Of a stretch of DNA of 34,291 nt, positions 16,498 to 33,040 are shown piece by piece (position 1 is the stretch's first letter; every line of letters begins with the position of its first letter). The stretch is from an uncultured Pseudomonadota bacterium (GTDB taxonomy: Bacteria; Myxococcota_A; UBA796; SXON01). A model generated the notes under the pieces. That model searched no databases, was not told where the DNA came from, and worked only from the letters and a program-made list of their open reading frames with translations. The position numbers were made by a program, and so were the translations under genes. The stretch covers positions 1-34,291 of the forward strand of contig CAJBVW010000181.1 in assembly GCA_903959175.1 (NCBI GenBank), read 5' to 3'.

Positions 16498-17270
16498 GGT
16501 TGACGCTCGGTTGAGGAAGTACCAGCCCGAATACCATAGCTCTCGGGTTGTCCGATCCGACCCAGAACTTTCGTGACGTCCTGTTGCGGGTCGACGGCGT
16601 GGCCGTCCGACCGCAGCTCGAAGTGCAGGTGGGGCCCGGTCGACCTCCCCGTGGACCCGACGGTCGCGAGGCTCTCGCCCGCGCGCACCACCTGGCCGGC
16701 CTTCACGCCGAGGGTGTCACAGTGCGCGTAGCGGGTCTCCACGCCGTCTCCGTGATCGAGCACCACGACGTTTCCGTACCCGCCGCGCTTCCCGGCGAAG
16801 CGAACGACGCCGTCGCGCGCGGCCATGATGGGGGTGCCGGTCCGCGCGGCGAGGTCGATGCCGTCGTGCCGGCGCGTGCCGCCCTCGATGGGGTCCGTGC
16901 GCAGGCCGAAGCCGCTGGTGACGCGGTGGCCCTCGGGCGCAACGTGGTGGAGCCCGTGGTTGCCGAGGTCGACGCCCTGCCCGGCGAAGGCGCTGCTGTC
17001 GCGCGCCGCGCTCCGCTCGAGCGCCTCGCGGACCTGATCCGCGAGCCCGATGCCGCGGCCCTCCGACGCGCGGCGCCCGATCTCCTGGGTGAAGTAGTCG
17101 GAGAACACGTCGGCGGCGCCCCCGGAGAGCGGCCCCCCACCGATCGAGTCCTGCATCTGTTCGGCGAGGAAGCCGATGAACCAGCCCTCGAAGGCCTTGG
17201 CCGCCTTGGCGGGGTCGTTCGGGAGCGTCGCTTGGGGAGCGGGCGAGGGGGTGGCGCCGGAGACCCGCAT
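16494..17270 (-). CDS. flgJ: FlgJ-type rod-binding protein fused to an M23 (LytM) peptidase domain
   Basis: The 258-residue protein combines a rod-binding FlgJ N-terminal domain (AKAFEGWFIGFLAEQMQDSI, 25-44; VFSDYFTQEIGRRASEGRGI, 55-74) with a C-terminal M23 metallopeptidase domain (about 110-233). The zinc-site motifs are complete: H135-x3-D139 in RRHDGID, H183 in RYAHCD, and H214-x-H216 in GPHLHFEL. The product would scaffold the rod and cut peptide cross-links in peptidoglycan so that the rod can pass. In gamma-proteobacterial FlgJ the second domain is a glucosaminidase instead. No signal peptide is visible, as expected for a protein exported through the flagellar channel. The ATG at 17270 overlaps the flgI stop by one base. 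Confidence 0.93.
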   Translation of the reverse strand: MRVSGATPSPAPQATLPNDPAKAAKAFEGWFIGFLAEQMQDSIGGGPLSGGAADVFSDYFTQEIGRRASEGRGIGLADQVREALERSAARDSSAFAGQGVDLGNHGLHHVAPEGHRVTSGFGLRTDPIEGGTRRHDGIDLAARTGTPIMAARDGVVRFAGKRGGYGNVVVLDHGDGVETRYAHCDTLGVKAGQVVRAGESLATVGSTGRSTGPHLHFELRSDGHAVDPQQDVTKVLGRIGQPESYGIRAGTSSTERQP

Positions 17271-18352
17271 CACATCGTCTCGATCTCGGCCTGGAGGCCG
17301 CCGGCCGCGTGCATGGCCTGGAGGATGACGATGAGATCGCGGGGGGAGACGCCCATCTTGTTCAGCGCGCCCACGACCTCGCCGACGGTCACGCCCTCGA
17401 TGAGCTCGAGGCGGCCCTGCTTCTCGTCCACCTTCACCGTGGTCTTGTCGGCGACGACGGTGCGGCCGCCGGAGAGCGCGCCGGGCTGGGAGAGGACGGG
17501 GTCGTGGTCGACCTGGATGGTGAGGCCGCCGTGCGCGATCGCGACGGGGCGCACCGTCACGTCCGCGCCCATGACCACGGTGCCGGTGCGCTCGTTCACG
17601 ACGACCTTGGCGACCTGGTCGATCTTCACGTCGACGGCCTCGAGCGTGGCGATGAGCTGGGCCTGTTTGCCGAGGAAGACGTCGGGGACGGAGACGCGCA
17701 CCGTGCCGCCGTCGATCGCCTGTGCGTACTCGCCGCCCAGCGTCGTGTTCATCGCGAGGGCGAGGCGCGTAGAGTTGGTGAAGTCGGGGGTGGCGAGCAC
17801 CCAATCGAAGCTCACGGCGCCGCGCACGTCGAGCGCGTTCGGGATCTCGACCTCGACCGCCGCGCCGCGGGGGATGAGGCCCACGGTGAGGTGGTTCTTG
17901 GTGGTGGACGCGCCGCCGCCGCCCGCGGAGAAGCCGCCGACGAGGATGGCGCCCTGCGAGCTCGCCACCGCCATGCCGTTCGCGGCGTAGAGCGGCGTCA
18001 TCAGGAGCACGCCGCCCTCGAGCGAGCGCGCGTCACCGACGCTCGAGACCTGCACGTCGAGCGGGCTCCCGGGGCGCGTACCCGCGGGTAGCTTGGCGGT
18101 GACCATCACGATCGCCACGTTGCGAGCCTTGATATCGTCCTCCGACATCGTCATGCCGAGGCCCTTGAGGCGGCTGGCGAGCGCCCGCACGGCGGCAGCG
18201 TTCTGGCCGGAGTCGCCGGTGCGCGCGAGGCCGACCACGAGGCCGTAGCCGACGAGCGCGTTGTCACGCACTCCGTACAGGGCCGCCACGTCCTTCACCC
18301 GCGCGGCTTCGGCCGGGGCGGACAGGGCGAGCAGGAGGGCGAGGAGCTGCAT
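17270..18352 (-). CDS. flgI: Flagellar P-ring protein FlgI
   Basis: FlgI builds the P ring in the periplasm. The 360-residue precursor has a Sec signal peptide (1-16, ending SAPAEA) and then the family motifs ARVKDVAALYGVRDNALVGY GLVVGL and RNVAIVMVTAKLPAGTRPGS. Further on are GGVLLMTPLYAANG, VVVNERTGTVVMGADVTVRP and EGVTVGEVVGALNKMGVSPR, ending in LIVILQAMHAAGGLQAEIE, all typical. The ATG at 18352 lies exactly seven bases after the -10 element of the promoter at 18359-18385, which predicts a leaderless transcript. It heads the operon flgI-flgJ-flgM-flgN-flgK-flgL. Confidence 0.97.
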   Translation of the reverse strand: MQLLALLLALSAPAEAARVKDVAALYGVRDNALVGYGLVVGLARTGDSGQNAAAVRALASRLKGLGMTMSEDDIKARNVAIVMVTAKLPAGTRPGSPLDVQVSSVGDARSLEGGVLLMTPLYAANGMAVASSQGAILVGGFSAGGGGASTTKNHLTVGLIPRGAAVEVEIPNALDVRGAVSFDWVLATPDFTNSTRLALAMNTTLGGEYAQAIDGGTVRVSVPDVFLGKQAQLIATLEAVDVKIDQVAKVVVNERTGTVVMGADVTVRPVAIAHGGLTIQVDHDPVLSQPGALSGGRTVVADKTTVKVDEKQGRLELIEGVTVGEVVGALNKMGVSPRDLIVILQAMHAAGGLQAEIETM

Positions 18353-19957: not shown

Positions 19958-20632
19958 TCAGAATGGCCAGACGGTGTCGGCGAGGCGGGTCGCCCAGCCG
20001 GGGCCCTGCTTGTCGGCGAGCACGCCGGCGCCGGTGAACTCGATGCGCGCCTCCGCGAGGAGCTCGGACTGCACGGTGTTGTCGACGAGGATGTCGCGGG
20101 GGCGCAGGATGCCCTCGAGCGTCAGGAATTGGGTCTCGCGGTTGACACGGATCTCTTTGGTGCCACGGATGCGGAGGTTCCCGTTGGAGAGCACCTCCAC
20201 CACCTGGCACGTCAGCGTCGCGGCGAGGGTGCCCTCGCGCGTGGTGCGCCCCGTGCCGGCCATCTCGGTGCCCTGGCTGCCCGAGATCTCGATCTTCCCG
20301 CCCATGTTGGGGTTCGCGGCGGTCATGCTGGTCTCGAGGCCGAGGAGGGCGCCGATACCGTACGTCGACTCGGAGTCGCGGGACGTGGTCGTGTCCGCGC
20401 CGAGGGAGGTGGAGGAGGTGTCCGCCACGCGCACCGTGATCAGGTCGCCGACGCGGCGCGCGTTGCCGTCCATGCCGATGAGGGCGCGGGCCTCGGCCTC
20501 GCTCCAGAGCGAGCCGGGTGTCGTCGGCGTGGCGATGGGGGAGACGGTCTTGACCGGAGCGGTCGTCGGCGCGGGCGCGATCGATCCGGTCGCGAGGTAG
20601 GCGGCGCAGCCGAGCAGGAGGAGGAGCGTCAT
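19958..20632 (-). CDS. flgH: Flagellar L-ring lipoprotein FlgH
   Basis: FlgH forms the L ring in the outer membrane. The 224-residue precursor has a very short lipoprotein signal (lipobox LLGC, Cys9). Conserved blocks are GSLWSEAEARALIGMD, RVGDLITVRVADTSSTSLGA, TLTCQVVEVLSNGNLRIRGT, EIRVNRETQFLTLEGILRP and DNTVQSELLAEARIEFTGAG. The tail is close to the usual LADKQGPGW. The presence of both FlgH and FlgI shows a Gram-negative envelope with L and P rings. The ATG overlaps the flgA stop (ATGA). Confidence 0.96.
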   Translation of the reverse strand: MTLLLLLGCAAYLATGSIAPAPTTAPVKTVSPIATPTTPGSLWSEAEARALIGMDGNARRVGDLITVRVADTSSTSLGADTTTSRDSESTYGIGALLGLETSMTAANPNMGGKIEISGSQGTEMAGTGRTTREGTLAATLTCQVVEVLSNGNLRIRGTKEIRVNRETQFLTLEGILRPRDILVDNTVQSELLAEARIEFTGAGVLADKQGPGWATRLADTVWPF

Positions 20633-21264
20633 GGGGTCCCCAACGTGACGACGCTGTCGCCGGCGTAGACGCCTTCGAGCACGGTGCGGGTGGAGAGGTT
20701 CAGGACGCTTACGGGGCGGCCGTGCCAGCCCTCCTGGAGCAGCTCGCCGTCCGCGGTGATGCGGAGGCCGTTGCCGCCGGCGACGAGGCGCACGGGGCTG
20801 CCGCGCTCGAGGTCGGGCGCCGGGCGGACGCGGGTGGTGGTGAGCGGGGCGCCGGCCTCGAGGTCCACGCGCGCGGTCCACGCGCCGACATCGGCGACGG
20901 GCTCCTCTCCGTGCAGGCGGTAGCTGGAGACGCGCTCGGTGCGGACCTCCACGCGCTCGCCGGCCCGCGTGTCCGCGACGGCGACGGGCACCGAGCGCCA
21001 CACCTCGACGTAGGCGTGGGTCTGCCAGCGGCCCGCGCCGCAGTGGAGCGTGACGGGGACCAGCCCCGTGACGGCGCCGACGCGCGGGAGCTGAACGGCG
21101 CAGGTGTCGCCGTCGGGGAGCCCGGCCACGGTGCCGACGCTGCGGACCTCGACGTCCGCCTCGTCCACGCCGAGCTGGGCGGCGACGGCCGCGCGGATCG
21201 GGTCCGCGGTGCCGGCGGCCGAGGCGAGGGCCGAGAGGGAGAGCAGGCAGAGGAGGGAGAGCAT
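20629..21264 (-). CDS. flgA: P-ring assembly chaperone FlgA
   Basis: FlgA is the periplasmic chaperone for P-ring formation. The 211-residue precursor has a signal peptide (1-17) and a variable N-terminal half. The C-terminal SAF domain carries RAGERVEVRTERVSSYRLHG, DLEAGAPLTTTRVRPAPDLE and LVAGGNGLRITADGELLQEG, followed by GRPVSVLNLSTRTVLEGVYA, the classical FlgA end. It lies two bases after flgG and overlaps flgH. Placing flgA between flgG and flgH is common outside the enterobacteria. Confidence 0.92.
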   Translation of the reverse strand: MLSLLCLLSLSALASAAGTADPIRAAVAAQLGVDEADVEVRSVGTVAGLPDGDTCAVQLPRVGAVTGLVPVTLHCGAGRWQTHAYVEVWRSVPVAVADTRAGERVEVRTERVSSYRLHGEEPVADVGAWTARVDLEAGAPLTTTRVRPAPDLERGSPVRLVAGGNGLRITADGELLQEGWHGRPVSVLNLSTRTVLEGVYAGDSVVTLGTP

Positions 21265-23552: not shown

Positions 23553-23579
23553 AGGTCGGTCAGCCTGCGCTTGCCTTTA
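23553..23579 (-). promoter_or_regulatory. Sigma-28-type promoter of fliA inside the flhA 3' end
   Basis: On the minus strand, -35 TAAA (23579-23576) is followed by 15 bases and -10 ACCGACCT (23560-23553). It is preceded by the AT-rich segment TTAGATAAGAAACC. It overlaps the last codons and stop of flhA. The predicted leader to the TTG start is about 67 bases. Confidence 0.65.
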
Positions 23580-25686
23580 GCGGTTTCTTATCTAATGAGA
23601 GCTCGGCTTCGCGCGAGAGGCCGGTGCCCGGCACGATCTCGCCGGGCGAGAGCACGGGGACGCGTGGGAGGGCCTTCTCGAAGAGGCGGCGGATCGGGCC
23701 GCGGGCCAGGGGGGGCACGAGGAGCACCAGCTCGCCCGCGCCGTTCCAGGCATCCGACTGTTGCCGCATGCCGACGATGAGCTTGCGGGTCGCTTCGGGC
23801 TCGAGCACCAGGGTCATGGCGCCGCCCTCTCCGCCCTGGAGGCCGCGCAGCACGGCGTCCTCGGCGTCCGCGGCGAGGCCGACGTAGTGGAGCACGTTGT
23901 CCTCGCCCACGAAGCGCGCGGTGACGGCGCGGGCCATGCGCTGGCGGACGAACTCGGTGAGCACGTCCGGGTCGCGGGTGCGGGGAGCGTACTCGGCGAG
24001 GGCCTCGAGGACCGCCTGGGTGTCGCGCACGCCCACGCCCTCCTGGATGAGGTTGCGGAAGACGCGGAGGACGGCGGCGCGGGGGAGAGGGTCCGGCATC
24101 AGCTCCTCCACGAGGCGCGGGTTGTCGGCGCTCACGCGCTCCAGGGCGTCCGCGAGCTGCTGACGGCCGAAGATCTCGTGCGCGTGGCGGCGGAAGAGAT
24201 CGTCGAGGTGCGTCGTGAGCACGGTCGGCACGTCGACGACGGTGTAGCCGAGCGCCTGGGCGCGCAGGCGCTGGGTGTCGGGCACCCACCAGCCGCGCAA
24301 GCCGTAGACGGGGTCCATCCCGGGCGTGCCCTGGAGGGGGCCGCTCGCGGTGCCGGGGTCGAGGGCGAGGACCTGGCGGGCGACCACCTTGCCGCTGCCG
24401 ATGGCCTCGCCGCGCAGGAGCACGCGGTACTGGCCGGTGCCGAGCCGCACGTTGTCGCGCAGGTGCACGGGCGGGAGCAGCACGCCGAGCTCGCTGGCGA
24501 CCTGCCGGCGGATGCGCTGGATGCGCTCCACCAGGGCGCCGCCGCGCTTCTCGTCGACGAAGTGGACGAGGTCGAGGCCGACCTCGAACACGAGGGCATC
24601 CACGCGGAGGAGCTCCTCTGGGCGGGGCTCGGCGGGCATGCCGTTGGCCGTGACTCCGCCGGGGCCCGCCGTGGCGACGGCGGCGGCGTCGACGGCGGAC
24701 TGCCCGCGGAGGGCGTAGGCGAGGCCGCCCAGGCCGGCGGAGAGGACGGCGAAGGGGAGGCGGAGGCCGGGAATGGCGATGAAGCCGCTCGCGAGCACGG
24801 CGAGCAGGCCGAGGGCGCGCGGGTTGCCGAGGAGCTGGTCGGCGAACTGCGCCTCGAGGGGCTTGTCCGCCGGGTCGGAGACGCGGGTGACGAGGAGGCC
24901 CGCGGAGGCCGAGATGATGAGCGCGGGGATCTGGGAGACCAGCCCGTCGCCGATGGTGAGGATCGTGTAGTTCGTGGCGGCCGTACGGAGGTCGAGCCCC
25001 TCCATGAACATGCCGATGACGATGCCGCCGACGATGTTGACGACCATGAAGACGATCGCCGCGATGGCGTCGCCCTTGATGAACTTGCTCGCGCCGTCCA
25101 TCGCGCCGTAGAAGTCCGCCTCCTGGCCGACCTCGGCGCGGCGCTTCTTCGCCGCCTTCTCGTCGATGAGGCCGGCGTTGAGCTCGGCGTCGATCGCCAT
25201 CTGCTTGCCCGGCAACGCGTCGAGGGTGAACCGCGCGGCCACCTCCGCCACGCGCCCGGCGCCTTTCGTGATGACGAGGAAGTTGATGACGAGGAGCAGG
25301 CAGAAGAGGATGAAGCCGACGACGTAGTTGCCGCCGACGACGAACTGGCCGAAGGCCTCGATGACGTGGCCGGCCGCGTCCGTGCCCTTGCTCCCGTTGA
25401 GGAGGATGAGGCGCGAGCTCGCGACGTTGAGCGAGAGCCGGAGGATCGTCGTGATCAGCAGGAGGATCGGGAACGACGAGAACTCGACGGGGCGCCGCAC
25501 GTAGAGGGAGACGAGGAAGATGAGGAGCGAGATGGTGATCGACGCCGCGAGGCAGAGGTCGAGGATCAGCGGCGGCAGCGGCACCATCAGGATCGCGAGC
25601 ATCCCGAACACGCCGAGCGCGAGCGCGATGTCGCCGTTCTTGCGGAGCAGGGCGACGGTGCTGGTGATGGGGGAGGGGCGGGCCAC
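23560..25686 (-). CDS. flhA: Flagellar export gate protein FlhA
   Basis: FlhA is the large export-gate component. From the GTG at 25686 it has 708 residues. The N-terminal half has the usual set of membrane helices, starting LLRKNGDIALALGVFGMLAI. The loop signature PGKQMAIDAELNAGLIDEKA with EADFYGAMDGASKFIKGDAI (about 159-207) is nearly identical to the family pattern. The cytoplasmic ring domain includes PPVHLRDNVRLGTGQYRVLL and ends LSPGEIVPGTGLSREAELSL. The GTG lies seven bases after a sigma-28-type -10 element, implying a leaderless mRNA. A TTG at 25725 would extend the frame by 13 codons but lies upstream of that -10 and has no ribosome site. Confidence 0.95.
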   Translation of the reverse strand: MARPSPITSTVALLRKNGDIALALGVFGMLAILMVPLPPLILDLCLAASITISLLIFLVSLYVRRPVEFSSFPILLLITTILRLSLNVASSRLILLNGSKGTDAAGHVIEAFGQFVVGGNYVVGFILFCLLLVINFLVITKGAGRVAEVAARFTLDALPGKQMAIDAELNAGLIDEKAAKKRRAEVGQEADFYGAMDGASKFIKGDAIAAIVFMVVNIVGGIVIGMFMEGLDLRTAATNYTILTIGDGLVSQIPALIISASAGLLVTRVSDPADKPLEAQFADQLLGNPRALGLLAVLASGFIAIPGLRLPFAVLSAGLGGLAYALRGQSAVDAAAVATAGPGGVTANGMPAEPRPEELLRVDALVFEVGLDLVHFVDEKRGGALVERIQRIRRQVASELGVLLPPVHLRDNVRLGTGQYRVLLRGEAIGSGKVVARQVLALDPGTASGPLQGTPGMDPVYGLRGWWVPDTQRLRAQALGYTVVDVPTVLTTHLDDLFRRHAHEIFGRQQLADALERVSADNPRLVEELMPDPLPRAAVLRVFRNLIQEGVGVRDTQAVLEALAEYAPRTRDPDVLTEFVRQRMARAVTARFVGEDNVLHYVGLAADAEDAVLRGLQGGEGGAMTLVLEPEATRKLIVGMRQQSDAWNGAGELVLLVPPLARGPIRRLFEKALPRVPVLSPGEIVPGTGLSREAELSLDKKPLKASAG

Positions 25687-25692
25687 GTCCGG

Positions 25693-25719
25693 AGTTCGGT
25701 CGCCCCGCCCCGAAGTTGA
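25693..25719 (-). promoter_or_regulatory. Sigma-28-type promoter of the flhA operon
   Basis: On the minus strand, -35 TCAA (25719-25716, context GCGCTCAACTTCG) is followed by 15 bases and -10 ACCGAACT (25700-25693). The flhA GTG begins seven bases further on. The segment upstream of the -35 is less A-rich here (GCAGATTGCG) than at the other sites. Confidence 0.75.
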
Positions 25720-25743
25720 GCGCAATCTGCGCGGGGCCGCGGA

Positions 25744-26643
25744 TCAGGCGGCGGCGTGCGCCCCGACCTCGGTGGCGACGAGCTTGCAGAGGTCCCCCAG
25801 CTTCTGCCCCGTCAGGTCGAGGCGCAGCAGGACGGGGTCGTCCTCCATCTTGCCGGTCGGGGGCTCGACGGGGCCGATCCCGAGCGAGTCGCACACGCGC
25901 AGCGCGGCCGCGACGACGTAGGCCATGAGCACGCCGGCGCCGGCGTCCGCGGGGCGGTGGTGGTAGCCGATGGCGGCGGTGACGAGCGGCGGGAGGTTCC
26001 AGGCGATGGCGAGGGCCTCGCCCACCTCGGCGTGGAGGTGCATGCACACCTCCTCCACCCGGTTGCTGTCGCGGAACTCGGGCGGCAGGTTGGACGTGCC
26101 GCGCGAGGCCATGCCGAAGATGACGGCCCAGCCGATGTCGTGGAGCAGCCCGGCCATGAAGGCGGAGTCGGCGTCGGTGCCGTAGATGCGGGCGATGTGG
26201 GAGGACGCGGAGGCCACGGCGCCCGCGCGGAGCTGGAGGCGGGACGTGAGCTCGGGGCGGGCGCGCACCATGAGCACGCGGTTGGCCGAGACGGTGAGGA
26301 GGAGCTGGCGGAGCCCGCGCGTGCCGATACGGAGGAGCGCCTCATGCAGGCCCGCGATGCGACGGTTCCCGCCGTAGAGCGGCGAGTTTGCCGCCTTCAG
26401 GAGCTGCGCCGCGAGCACCGGATCCCGGCCGAGCACCTGCACCACGCGCCCGATGGGGAGGCTCGGGTTGTTGGTGAGCGTCATCACCTCGCGGGCCACC
26501 GGCGGCAGGAGCGGCACCTCGGCGAAGTGCCTGAGCTCGAGCAGCAACAGCGGGCGGGCGACCGCGTAGACCCAGCCGGTGTTGGGGGCGGTGGGGTCGG
26601 GGAGGAGGGCGACGGGCGGCCGCGGGGAGCGGTGGAGCATCAT
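25744..26643 (-). CDS. HDOD-domain signalling protein
   Basis: The 299-residue cytoplasmic protein has an HDOD domain at about 38-250. Markers are LRHFAEVPLLPPVAREVMTL (37-56), LGRDPVLAAQLLKAANSPLY (71-90) and AFMAGLLHDIGWAVIFGM (161-178), which retains the His-Asp of the HD superfamily. Also present are HLHAEVGEALAIAWNLPPLV and IGYHHRP. HDOD proteins generally act as signalling adaptors, and several influence motility or c-di-GMP responses; a catalytic role is usually absent. The ATG overlaps the stop of the giant surface protein, and the gene lies 24 bases upstream of the flhA -35. It is therefore the last gene of the surface-protein operon and a plausible link between that operon and motility. 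The target is unknown. Confidence 0.9.
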   Translation of the reverse strand: MMLHRSPRPPVALLPDPTAPNTGWVYAVARPLLLLELRHFAEVPLLPPVAREVMTLTNNPSLPIGRVVQVLGRDPVLAAQLLKAANSPLYGGNRRIAGLHEALLRIGTRGLRQLLLTVSANRVLMVRARPELTSRLQLRAGAVASASSHIARIYGTDADSAFMAGLLHDIGWAVIFGMASRGTSNLPPEFRDSNRVEEVCMHLHAEVGEALAIAWNLPPLVTAAIGYHHRPADAGAGVLMAYVVAAALRVCDSLGIGPVEPPTGKMEDDPVLLRLDLTGQKLGDLCKLVATEVGAHAAA

Positions 26644-29600
26644 TTGATGATCTCGGTGGGGAGAGTGATCTGGCGGGCGTCTGCGGGGATGTCTTCGACG
26701 CGGACGACGCGGAACTCGACCCGTCGGTTCAGGGCGAGGGCGCCGTCATCGTCTCCGGGGGCGAGGGGGCGGGTCTCTCCGTAGCCCTTGGAGAGGAGGC
26801 GGTCGTAGGGCACGCCGTGCTCGACGAGGAAGCGCATGACGGAGAAGGCGCGGGCGTCCGAGAGGCGGAGGTTGTAGGCGTCCGGCCCGTTCGTGTTGGC
26901 GTGCCCCTCGATGAGGAACCACGGCAGGTCGGTGTGGGCGCGCATGATCTCGCTGACCGCGGTGAGCACGCGGGCGCTGCTCGGCAGGAGCTCGGCCTGG
27001 TCCTCCTTGAAGTGGACGGTCTCGGTGATGACGATGCGGTCGCCGGCGAACTCCGCCACCTTGGGGCAGCCGTCCGACCAGCGCGGGTCCTGCTCCGGGC
27101 GGATGGGCTCGCGGGGGCACACGTCCTTCTCGAAGGCGACGCCGTCGCCGTCGCCGTCGAGCTCGGGGCAGCCGTCGTCGTCGGTGAAGCCGTCGAGGGT
27201 CTCGGCCTGGTCGGGGCACTTGTCGAGCGCGTCGGGGAAGCCGTCGCCGTCGCGGTCGGCGGTGGGATCGACGGGCGGCGGCGGCGGGGCAGGCTCGGGC
27301 GTGACGCGGGAGAAGCCGATGCCGACGTACGCGCGCCAGCGGCTCGCGCCGACGCCTTCGCCGATGCCCGCGGCGGCGCCGAGGGAGGCCCAGGCGCCCA
27401 TCGGGAGGCGGGCGCGCGCGCCGAGGGAGGCCTCAAGGGGGACCTGGGGAAGGTCGGAGGCGGTGGAGAGCTCGAACGAGGCGGAGATGGCGTCCGTCGC
27501 GCGGTAGGCGACCCCGAGCCCGGCGACGGGGCCGAGGCCGGAGGAGAGGTTGCGCGACTTTTCGGGGAAGGCCGCCATGGCCCCGGCGAGCGCGACGACG
27601 CCGATCTTGCCGAACTCCTTGGTGCCCGAGAGGGCGACCATGGCGCGGGGGCCGAGGCTCCCGACCCAGTGGGCCTCGGCGCCGGTCGGCGCCCAGATCG
27701 CGGTGCGCACGCCGAGCGCGGGGCCGACCTTGAGGCGGATCGGCACCTGCGCGCCCACGCGCACGTCGCCGAGCGTCGTGAAGCCGCCGCTGCTGTCCTG
27801 CCCGAAGAGGTGGACGGGCGCGACGAGATCGACCTGGAGGCCGCCGAAGGAGTAGGCGGCGGCGACGTTGGCGGTGGCGAGCGCGCTCAGCACCGGCACG
27901 CGGCCGTCGGGGAGCTGCTCGGCGAGCGGGTCGTCCGCGTAGTCCACGGTCACGCCGGCGTCCCAGGAGCCCTTGCGGTCCACCTCGGGGCAGCCGAGCC
28001 GCGTGTAGCAGAGGGGGTCGCCCGTGGTGGCGCCGAGCACGAAGCCGTGGGCGTCGATGGCGAAGGCGGGGCCCGCCGCGAGGAGGGCCGCCGGGGCTGC
28101 CGCGAGGGCCGCCGCCCGCCGGTTGCGCCGAAGCGAGCCGAAGAAGGCGCCGGCGAAGAGGAGCCCGGCCCAGCCGCCGCCGCAGCCGCCTCCGACGAGG
28201 CCGCCCTGGTAGTCGAGGAAGTCGGGGAGGCCGTCGTTGTCGAGGTCCGCCGTCCCCTCGTCGCGGTCGAGGTAGCCGTCGCCGTCGCTGTCGGGGTCGT
28301 GGGCGTTGAGCACGCCGTCCCCGTCCACGTCGGTGTCGTACACGCCGTCGCCCTCGCCGTTCTCCGCGCCGAGGTCCACCGTGAGCTCGTCGCGCGTGGG
28401 GATGCCGTCGCCGTCGTCGTCGGTGTCGAGGGCGTCGAGGATCTGGTCGCCGTCGTGGTCCGTCAGCTCGTCGCCGTCGGAGAGCGTGTCGTCGTCGGTG
28501 TCGGCGTCCTCGTAGTCGGTGCCGAGGTTCCACTCGAGCAGGTCGGCGAGGCCGTCGCGGTCGCGATCGTCGCTCTCGGCCCAGCCGTCGCAGTCGTCGT
28601 CGAGGCCGTTCTCGCGCTCGGCGGCGTCGGGGTTCACGGCGGGGTCGAGGTCGTCGCAGTCCTGGGCGATCTCCCAGCCGTCGCCGTCCTGATCGTCGTC
28701 ACGGCCGTCGCAGTCGTCGTCCACGCCGTCGTACCAGACCTCTCTCGCGCCGGGGTTGATGGCCGCGTCGTCGTCGTCGCAGTCGTCGCCCGCACCGAGC
28801 TCGTTCAGGTAGCCGTCGCCATCGCGATCCCACTCGGAGTAGCCGTCGCAGTCGGTGTCCTGGCCGTCGTCGGGGTCCTCCTCGGCGCCGGGGTAGGCGC
28901 CGGGATCCCCGTCGTTGCAGTCCGTGCCGCCCGCGCCCTCGCCCACCCAGCCGTCCCCGTCGACGTCCACGAGGTCCGCGCCGGAGCAGTCCTGGTCGAC
29001 GCTGTCGTAGGGGATCTCGGTGTTGCCGGGGAAGCGCGCGGCGGAGAGGTCGTCGCAGTCGTCGCCGCCGTAGAAGGACGCGTCGTGACCGTCGCGATCG
29101 CGGTCGTAGTCGGAGCGGCCGTCGCAGTCGGAGTCGACGCCGTCGTACCAGGTCTCGGGGCGGGTGCCGTAGACGGTGGGGTCGTCGTCGTCGCAGTCGT
29201 CGCCGCCCCCGAAGGTGGCGTCGTGGCTGTCGCCGTCGCGATCGTAGTCGGAGTCGCCGCTACAGTCGGCGTCGATGCCGTCGTACCAGGTCTCCGCCGC
29301 GCCGGGGAAGATCGTGGGGTCGGTGTCGTCGCAATCGCCGCCGTACACGCTGCCGTAGCCGTCGCCGTCCACGTCGTCGAGATCGGCGCCGTCGCAGTCC
29401 TGGTCGATGGCGTCGTAGGCGGTCTCGGGGGCGCCGGGGTAGACCGAGGCGTCCCCGTCGTCGCAGTCCACGTTGTCGAACCAGCCGTCGCCGTCGCCGT
29501 CGAGCACGTCCGCGTCGGTCCCGCCGTAGGCGCCGATGTCGGAGCGGGTCGCGTCCACGTCGAAGAGGGCGGGGCTGCCGGCGTCCACCGCGGGGCTCGT

Positions 29601-31588
29601 GGCGGCGAGGGAGAGATCGTCGTCGCGCTCGTCGCCGTCGGCGGTGTAGCTGACCAGCTGCGGCTCGACCGCGAGGTTGCCGCTGGTGCCGGTGGCGTCG
29701 CTCCACCCGCCGACCCAGCCGCCGCCGGAGTCGAGGTACGTGAGGTTGTAGAAACGATCCGAGCCGGTCGCGGTGGCGCCCCACACCCCGCCGCCGTCGA
29801 GCGCCTGGGTGAACAGGTCGTTCACGAGGCGCACCGGGCCGCCCGCGTAGAGGTGCCCGCCCTCGTCCGCGGCGTCGTTTCCCGCGAAGGTGCAGTTGGT
29901 CACCGCGACCTGCGCGGGGCCGCTCGTGTAGAGGCCGGCGCCGTCCGTCGCGAGGTTGTCGGTGACGCGGAGGTTGGTGAGCGCGGCGGCGCCGGGCGAG
30001 CGGAGGCGGATGGCCCCGCCGTTCGCGCCGGCGTTGCCGTGCAGGTAGGCGCGTGAGAGGTCGACGTCCGCGACCGAGTCCGCGTAGACGCCGCCGCCGT
30101 CACCGCCCGCGGTGTTGCGGAAGAAGGTGGCCTCGCGCACAGTGAGCGCGTCGCCGGAGGCGAAGATGGCGCCGCCGTCGTCGTCCGCGGTGTTGTCGGT
30201 GAAGCGCGTGCCGTCGAGGTCGAGCGCGCCCTCGCCGGCGATGGCGCCGCCGTTGCCGAGCGTCGCGTCGTTGCCGTCGAAGGTGCCGCCCTCGAGGGTG
30301 ACCGGCGCGGTAGACCAGACGGCGCCGCCGTCGCCGAGGATGGCGCGGTTGAGCTGCGCCGAGATGTCGACGAGCGCGAGGGCGCCGGTGCCCGCGTGCG
30401 CGATGGCGCCGCCCGAGGTGCGCGCCTGCCCGGCGTCGAAGACGGTGCCGTCGAAGCGCGCGGTGGCCGAGCCTTCCATCGCGACCGAGCCGCCGTTCGC
30501 GGCGGTGTTGTCCTGCCAGGTGCCGTCGAGGTCCTCCCAGGAGGAGCCGGTGGCGAGGAGGAGCGCGCCGCCGTCGCCGGTGGCCACGTTGCCGCTGTAG
30601 ACGCACGCCTCGCAGGTGGCCGCCGAGGTGCCGAGGAGGCGCACCGCGCCGCCCTCCGCCGCGGTCCCGTCCAGCACGGAGAAGGTGGTGAGCGTGGCGC
30701 TCGTGTCTTCGAGGTCGAGGGCGCCGCCGCCGTCCGTGGCGCGCGGGTCACGGATCACGACGTCGTCGAAGGTGATGACGCTGCCGTCGTCCGCCCACAC
30801 GGCCCCGCCCGCGGTGGCGCGGGTGTCGGAGATCGTGGCGACGGTGAGCGTGAGCGCGGCGTGCCCGGTGAGGTAGAAGGCGCCGCCGTCGCCGGTGCCG
30901 CCGCCGGAGGCCGCGTCGGTCCCGTCGAGGGAGAGGTCGGTGAAGGCGAGGTCTCCGCCGTCGACGTAGGCAAAACCGCCGTCGCGCGTCGCCGCGGCGC
31001 CGGTGACGAGCACGTTCGTGAGCGAGACGCTGGCGCCGCCGTCCACATGGAGGGCTCCGCCGTAGGTCGCGGTGCCGCCGGAGAAGACGACGTTGGTGCC
31101 GGTGACGGTGGCGGAGCGCCCGGCGTGGAGCTGGCCGCCCCAGGTCGCGCTGCCGCCGGAGAAGGTGACGCCGGAGAGGTCGAGCGTGGCGTCGTCCACC
31201 GCGAGGGCGCCGCCGGTGAGGCCGAGCCCGCCGGCGTCCTGGATGACGAGGTCCACGGCGGTGAGGGCGCCGCCGTCCACCGTGACGGCGCGGGCAGCGG
31301 TCGGCGTGATCGTGAAGCCGTCGAGCGTCGCGACCTCGTCCCGTGTGGCGACGAAGGCGGTCGAGCCGGAGGGCGGCGCGAGGAAGGTGACCGTGGAGCC
31401 GCCGGTCGAGCGGATCGTGAGGTCCTTCCCGCCGAGATCGAGGGCCTCGGCCCAGGCGCCGGGGGCGACCGAGATCGTGTCGCCGTCGCTGGCGGCGGTG
31501 ATCGCGCTGGCGATCGTCGTGTAGGGGCCGGCGGTGGAGACCGTGAGGGTCGCCGCGTGCGCGGGCATGGCCAGGGCGACGAGGAGGT

Positions 31589-31592
<4 letters not shown>
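26640..31592 (-). CDS. Giant fusion: Pmp-like beta-helix, MopE/TSP3 repeats, anchor-like segment and OmpA protein
   Basis: The predicted product has 1650 residues, and the parts below read in one frame without a stop. A short signal peptide (1-14) precedes a right-handed beta-helix (about 15-690) with a dozen or more GGAI/GGAV/GGAL and F-x-x-N motifs, like chlamydial Pmp repeats. MopE-type Asp/Cys repeats (about 694-1010; CDDGD, DQDCDGAD, WYDGVDSDCDG) and TSP3-like DxDGDG repeats (to about 1128) follow. Then comes GGGCGGGWAGLLFAGAFFGS with LRRNRR (1134-1159), resembling a MYXO-CTERM anchor, and at once a signal-like AAALAAAPAALLAAGPAFA (1160-1178). The last part is a barrel-like region (1180-1430), a Pro linker, two TSP3 repeats (1445-1511) and an OmpA domain (about 1515-1640; GYGETRPL, LNRRVEF). 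It looks like an anchored adhesin fused to an OmpA protein. The ATG at 31592 overlaps the preceding stop. Confidence 0.85.
28059..28193 (-). other. Junction of C-terminal anchor-like and signal-peptide-like segments
   Basis: This segment encodes residues 1134-1178 of the fusion. A Gly-rich motif with Cys1137, a hydrophobic stretch and LRRNRR form what would normally be the C-terminus of a surface protein. The next 19 residues look like the N-terminal signal of a separate OmpA protein. No stop and no ATG or GTG lies between the two in this frame. Confidence 0.75.
28209..29513 (-). repeat. Asp-rich MopE/TSP3-type repeat region
   Basis: About 435 codons dominated by GAC, GGC and TGC encode tandem D-x-D-x-D-G metal-binding units. 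These include at least eight copies of a longer unit with a CDD...P..YPGA.E..YDG.D.DCDG pattern. The DNA repetitiveness (gtcgtc and tcgccgtc runs on the plus strand) is explained by this protein region. Calcium binding is the usual property of such repeats. Confidence 0.85.
29838..31220 (-). repeat. Pmp-like GGA(I/V/L) repeats of the beta-helix domain
   Basis: Residues about 125-585 of the fusion carry repeated units with GGALHVDG, GGAVWADD, GGAVRLLG, GGALLLAT, GGAIAHAG, GGAVWSTA, GGAIAGEG, GGAIFASG, GGGVYADS and GGAIRLRS. These alternate with FDGNDAT, FTDNTAD and FFRNTAG. Each unit is one coil of a right-handed beta-helix, as in polymorphic outer-membrane proteins. Confidence 0.8.

Positions 31593-33040
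<1,448 letters not shown>

Follow-up and report, generated by a model that had tools for sequence, protein, structure and literature searches.

A Myxococcota reading frame joining a tagged adhesin-like protein to an OmpA-barrel protein through a conserved hinge: a candidate secreted polyprotein

The window analysed here, 34,291 nucleotides of contig CAJBVW010000181.1 (assembly GCA_903959175.1) from an uncultured bacterium of the Myxococcota_A, carries on its minus strand a single open frame of 1650 codons that begins with ATG at 31592 and ends with TGA at 26640 (Table 1). The ATG shares four bases (31589–31592) with the stop of an upstream gene for a 483-residue protein, and the TGA end shares four bases (26640–26643) with a downstream HDOD gene. 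A flagellar cluster fills the remainder of the window and encodes FliI, FliG, FliF, FliD, flagellin, FlgK, FlgI, MotB, FlgH, FlgA, FlgG and FlhA. Synteny places flhA downstream of the adhesin/OmpA module in genomes belonging to families f1 and f6. This setting hints at a possible link to motility. The product of the upstream gene ends in a divergent Cys/TM/Arg tail, GGWGCETATAPGFPAWILALALLFRRHA, which scores 8.7 bits against MYXO-CTERM.

Table 1. Coordinates of the fused gene, its parts and its neighbors in the window
Feature	Position	Strand	Basis or remark
Whole fused gene	26640..31592	-	1650 aa
N-terminal signal peptide MNLLVALAMPAHA, 13 aa, short, without basic residue	31554..31592	-	Sequence; hydropathy
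Right-handed beta-helix, best Pfam stretch, aa 462-605	29778..30209	-	PF13229, 41.3 bits, cut-off 25.9
MopE-type metal-binding repeats, 6 Pfam stretches	28581..29501	-	PF11617, 174.7 bits; limits from repeat motifs
TSP3-like D-rich stalk ahead of the tag	28212..28568	-	Sequence motifs
Internal sorting-tag-like segment GGGCGGGWAGLLFAGAFFGSLRRNRR, aa 1134-1159: Cys (28182-28184), hydrophobic stretch, Arg cluster	28116..28193	-	Conservation in relatives
Second signal-peptide-like segment AAALAAAPAALLAAGPAFA, aa 1160-1178, predicted signal peptidase I site after AFA, without start codon	28059..28115	-	Sequence, hydropathy
Outer-membrane beta-barrel, about 12 strands, FapF/COG4313-like fold	27303..28058	-	AlphaFold2 and Foldseek
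TSP3 repeats between barrel and OmpA	27063..27257	-	Sequence motifs
OmpA peptidoglycan-binding domain, aa 1528-1618	26739..27011	-	PF00691, 59.2 bits, cut-off 27.2
Upstream partner gene, 483 aa, own Cys/TM/Arg-like tail	31589..33040	-	In many relatives linked with the adhesin gene
HDOD-domain gene, overlapping the fused-gene end; flagellar cluster begins here	25744..26643	-	Pfam, synteny
flhA	23560..25725	-	PF00771, 773 bits

The initial annotation had described one frame joining an adhesin-like half to an OmpA half, and both the frame and the Pfam domains (Beta_helix, MopE and OmpA, all above cut-off) confirm this. Beta-helix repeats span most of residues 14–690 of the N-terminal half. They had been called Pmp-like; in this copy they match Pfam Beta_helix, and the Chlam_PMP model matches only some of the relatives. 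Scans with Pfam and NCBIfam found beta-helix and MopE and no PA14 in this half; identity with TraA was considered and rejected, as neither a PA14-like variable domain nor Cys-rich repeats were found. Very short predicted signal peptides (about 10–16 residues) without basic residues recur in this lineage, being seen in the fused gene, in FlgI (17270–18352), in FlgA (20629–21264) and at the starts of the second genes (B) in L040–L055.

The C-terminal half (B), taken in its predicted mature form with 12 relatives, was modeled by AlphaFold2 as a barrel of about 12 strands (pLDDT mostly 75–93) that a linker of low confidence connects to an OmpA domain (mean pLDDT 72.7, pTM 0.55). Together with the TSP3 motifs and PF00691, the model bears out the barrel-like region, TSP3 repeats and OmpA domain previously proposed to follow the join. 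The top Foldseek matches were FapF (5o67, E 6.9e-9) and the COG4313 channel (4rl8, E 5.6e-8), followed by OmpA/Pal domains; at the sequence level no solved structure matched the profile of the hairpin and barrel of this protein family (family I). With its barrel and an OmpA domain above cut-off, this half fits the OmpA-domain outer-membrane anchors. A type V autotransporter was rejected, there being no Pfam Autotransporter match and the TSP3 repeats and OmpA domain coming after the barrel. All the parts of TraB (barrel, TSP3 repeats and OmpA domain) are present; however, the TraB model NF033763, whose cut-off is 700 bits, matched the TSP3-OmpA region with 166.5 bits, so this half is TraB-like in build and is not a TraB.

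Between the two halves lies a hinge that reads, from 28193 to 28058 onward, GGGCGGGWAGLLFAGAFFGSLRRNRR-AAALAAAPAALLAAGPAFA-IDAHGF. This locates the anchor-like tail and the second signal-like segment that had been noticed to follow one another without a stop. Third-position GC is 0.93 in the hinge and 0.97 on both flanks, as expected of continuous coding, and hence the frame is coding throughout. From the tag up to mature B the frame contains no ATG, GTG or TTG, the earliest being a GTG at 28040 within mature B, and the Leu that precedes RRNRR is encoded by CTT. With no usual start codon before mature B, the second half cannot initiate alone at a usual start.

The tag of the fused protein, GGGC ... 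RRNRR, has a single Cys and a weak hydrophobic segment (15-residue mean 1.46), and 491 residues follow it. The MYXO-CTERM models TIGR03901 and TIGR03382 gave no match to this tail at E<=10, and it is also omitted by the scan of the genome. The invariant Cys, hydrophobic segment and Arg cluster of a MYXO-CTERM tag are present; the extreme C-terminal position and the curated score are lacking. That such tags normally end a protein, as previously stated, holds in this same genome: of its best 30 canonical tags 29 were located, and every one of these is terminal and at most 31 residues from the stop. About 55 MYXO-CTERM tags in the genome score above cut-off. A myxosortase gene had been suggested as something to look for, and a protein of that family (L125) was found; it reaches 110.5 bits with Mrt_core (cut-off 100), has EExxxR as EEFFYR and HxxxN as HAWAN, and falls below the cut-offs of MrtX, MrtC and MrtP. 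The secretin gene gspD is present as two contig-end pieces on two contigs.

Orthologues of the second half were sought in 58 relatives and then in an order-wide set of 63 genomes, and both fused and separate genes occur, so that the join is neither an isolated artefact nor a lone exception among relatives that all have two genes. Fused family-I orthologues that retain the tag, the Arg cluster and the second signal were found in G001, G004, G029, G041, G031, G046, G032, G026, G039 and G059, covering five families of the order; the one from the same genus (G001) is 72% identical. G041 and G031 run into a contig end close to the junction, and G004 and G026 are cut in the same way at their 5' ends; the junction is visible in all. 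Among 11 fused family-I proteins the tag G, the tag C and one Arg are invariant, and the mean column identity of the hairpin is 46%. One fused family-I protein (L122, 3985–8859; G060:C103) is without the second hydrophobic segment (LLVGRRAAAQEVEGLDAHNF). In most other genomes of family f1 there are two adjacent genes instead: A closes with an Arg-rich tail followed by a stop, and B starts with a signal of its own; they overlap by 4 (ATGA), 1 (TGATG), 10 or 13 bases, or are separated by gaps of 2–3 bases. At L044, L045 and L058 the split A and B genes are not directly adjacent. That split genes overlap or nearly touch in sister lineages argues that the two halves are partners. At least four changes between fused and split states are required by the unrooted tree, counted on its supported (starred) branches. 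The presence of fused members in each of the five families suggests that the fused state may be old. Strong family-I matches outside the order were absent from a 379-genome sample of the phylum.

The same genome encodes a further fused protein, C102 (L157), whose barrel sequence is distinct (...NAQRF...) and whose tag reads HYTGGACS...RRRRR. Equivalents of it were found at L069, L207–L215 and L217, and GG-C and RR are invariant in 12 proteins of this family II; the tail of L069 passes TIGR03901 with 23 bits. Split versions of family II (C239, C472) are found in the same genome as the fused gene. C102, C70, C456, C239, C177 and C472 carry further pairs of a tagged protein and an OmpA protein, either fused (C102) or adjacent, which suggests a large paralogous set of TraAB-like modules in this genome. 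Fused frames with the same hinge occur across the phylum (L252–L260, L262–L264, L266 and L276–L278) and represent nine further families; the hinge of L263 begins with TGGC and has the same design. In each of the 36 catalogued hinges, whose AxA ends were chosen by eye, there are a Cys and two hydrophobic stretches, with a basic cluster (median 4 Arg/Lys) between the stretches and an AxA-type end after the second. Some fused proteins of this design in other families are very large, with frames of 3122 residues (L260, 2261–11626, G112) and 2283 residues (L258, 1830–8678, G164).

By the positive-inside rule an Arg loop is cytoplasmic, which is the normal topology for a MYXO-CTERM tag and for a signal peptide alike. 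We infer that the hinge is a hairpin with its Arg loop in the cytoplasm; as the tag and the signal peptide each normally place their Arg side there, their fusion should create no topological conflict. The gene product is probably a secreted polyprotein whose hinge is cut twice, giving an adhesin at the surface and, in a 1:1 ratio with it, a barrel partner bound to peptidoglycan. Led by its N-terminal signal, the chain would enter Sec, and export of the adhesin half would proceed until the hydrophobic segment of the tag halts translocation and leaves the Arg cluster as a short cytoplasmic loop. The second hydrophobic segment would then restart translocation, making the hinge a TM-Arg-TM hairpin. 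Myxosortase would cut at the tag, and signal peptidase I would cleave after AFA, releasing the OmpA-barrel half for insertion into the outer membrane; the two products, at a fixed 1:1 ratio, would cooperate like TraA and TraB. The topology, the two cuts and lipidation are predictions here, and so are the location at the surface, the pairing of the two products and any role in adhesion. The main doubt lies with the non-canonical single-Cys tag, the cleavage of which is a prediction. Against two cuts stand the one Cys of that tag, given that TraA needs its conserved cysteines for cleavage (PMC11980579), the failure of both MYXO-CTERM models to find the tag, its weak hydrophobic segment, the hinge of L122 and the scores of L125 under the MrtX, MrtC and MrtP cut-offs.

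A rival reading is that the tag is vestigial and signal peptidase I the sole cutter, in which case the OmpA-barrel half would be freed and the adhesin half would be kept in the inner membrane by the hairpin or shed. The unscored family-I tag with its weak hydrophobic stretch and the retention of the second signal with AxA are consistent with this reading. A dead tag, however, should lose its Cys and Arg, and the fused proteins of families I and II keep both without exception while the hairpin otherwise varies; the myxosortase-family gene in the genome also speaks against it, and we consider a vestigial tag unlikely. The initial annotation had offered cleavage into adhesin and anchor or, alternatively, one uncut chain reaching from peptidoglycan to the cell exterior. 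Cleavage is the better fit to the invariant Cys, the Arg loop and the second signal with AxA found in nearly every fused relative. The uncut chain would agree with the single frame and with the missing second signal of L122; however, it would set two hydrophobic segments and an Arg loop, that is an inner-membrane hairpin, almost directly before an outer-membrane barrel, and both predicted cut sites are conserved and relatives encode two separate proteins. We give the uncut chain little credence.

Production of two proteins by separate initiation or frameshifting is suggested by the relatives with overlapping genes and ATGA or TGATG junctions. The lack of an in-frame ATG, GTG or TTG before mature B, both here and in L121, and the coding-like third-position GC in one frame all along make it very improbable. 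The genome is a draft of 611 contigs with a GC content of about 75% at the junction, where an assembly or sequencing error could in principle have deleted a stop and a start. Independent assemblies covering five families of the order nevertheless show this join, and the second family is phylum-wide; recurrence in independent relatives argues that it is not an artefact, for which we see hardly any chance. Returning to the doubly cut polyprotein, we lean slightly towards extending it to Myxococcota at large, with the tag and the signal peptide built around a common Arg loop in a hairpin that is cut twice, adhesin and anchor being co-exported 1:1, and lineages switching between one gene and two overlapping genes.

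In the published view internal MYXO-CTERM tags are rare and atypical, with one named case (PMC11980579). The design described here is common and conserved, and in evolution it is exchanged with split genes. This argues for a tag that functions within a chain, and for partnerships of adhesins with barrel-OmpA proteins well beyond TraA/TraB. The questions that can now be put to experiment are whether a myxosortase cuts in mid-chain and whether bacterial polyproteins serve to fix the ratios of partners. A literature search on polyproteins and sorting signals returned nothing.

Among known systems, FapF and the COG4313 channels have the same barrel fold at about 15% identity and are without the TSP3-OmpA tail or a fused adhesin. 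Canonical MYXO-CTERM tags share the Cys motif, hydrophobic segment and Arg cluster, and differ in having GCGC and a terminal place, as against the internal single-Cys GGGC. TraB consists of a barrel, TSP3 and OmpA and forms a 1:1 complex with TraA (PMC12045341); cleavage of TraA depends on its conserved cysteines, and traA and traB overlap (PMC11980579), by four bases (PMC3325183). The likeness to the fused protein lies in an adhesin with a Cys/TM/Arg tag and a barrel-TSP3-OmpA partner, and the four-base overlap is also seen in split relatives; on the other hand, TraA and TraB are separate genes and TraA has PA14 and Cys-rich repeats, which the fused protein does not have. The closest description is that of MXAN_5598 of M. 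xanthus, an atypical ORF with an adhesin, an internal MYXO-CTERM, a barrel and OmpA, for which a fusion origin and N-terminal processing were proposed (PMC11980579, mBio 2025) and which appears in a table of vesicle proteins identified by mass spectrometry (PMC4158809). The architecture was therefore already known from one case. As far as the literature searched shows, what is new is how widely it occurs, that it has changed repeatedly between one gene and two, that tag and signal are both conserved where the halves meet, and the flagellar-linked family; the split sisters and the breadth are absent from PMC11980579. When a family-II match near ftsZ was looked for in one genome, the nearest lay 34 kb away. 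Compared by description, MXAN_5598 and the fused gene both place a large adhesin region, an internal tag, an outer-membrane beta-barrel and OmpA in one ORF. They differ in that MXAN_5598 lies among ftsA/ftsZ and its tag counts as MYXO-CTERM, whereas the fused gene lies in a flagellar cluster and its tag is unscored.
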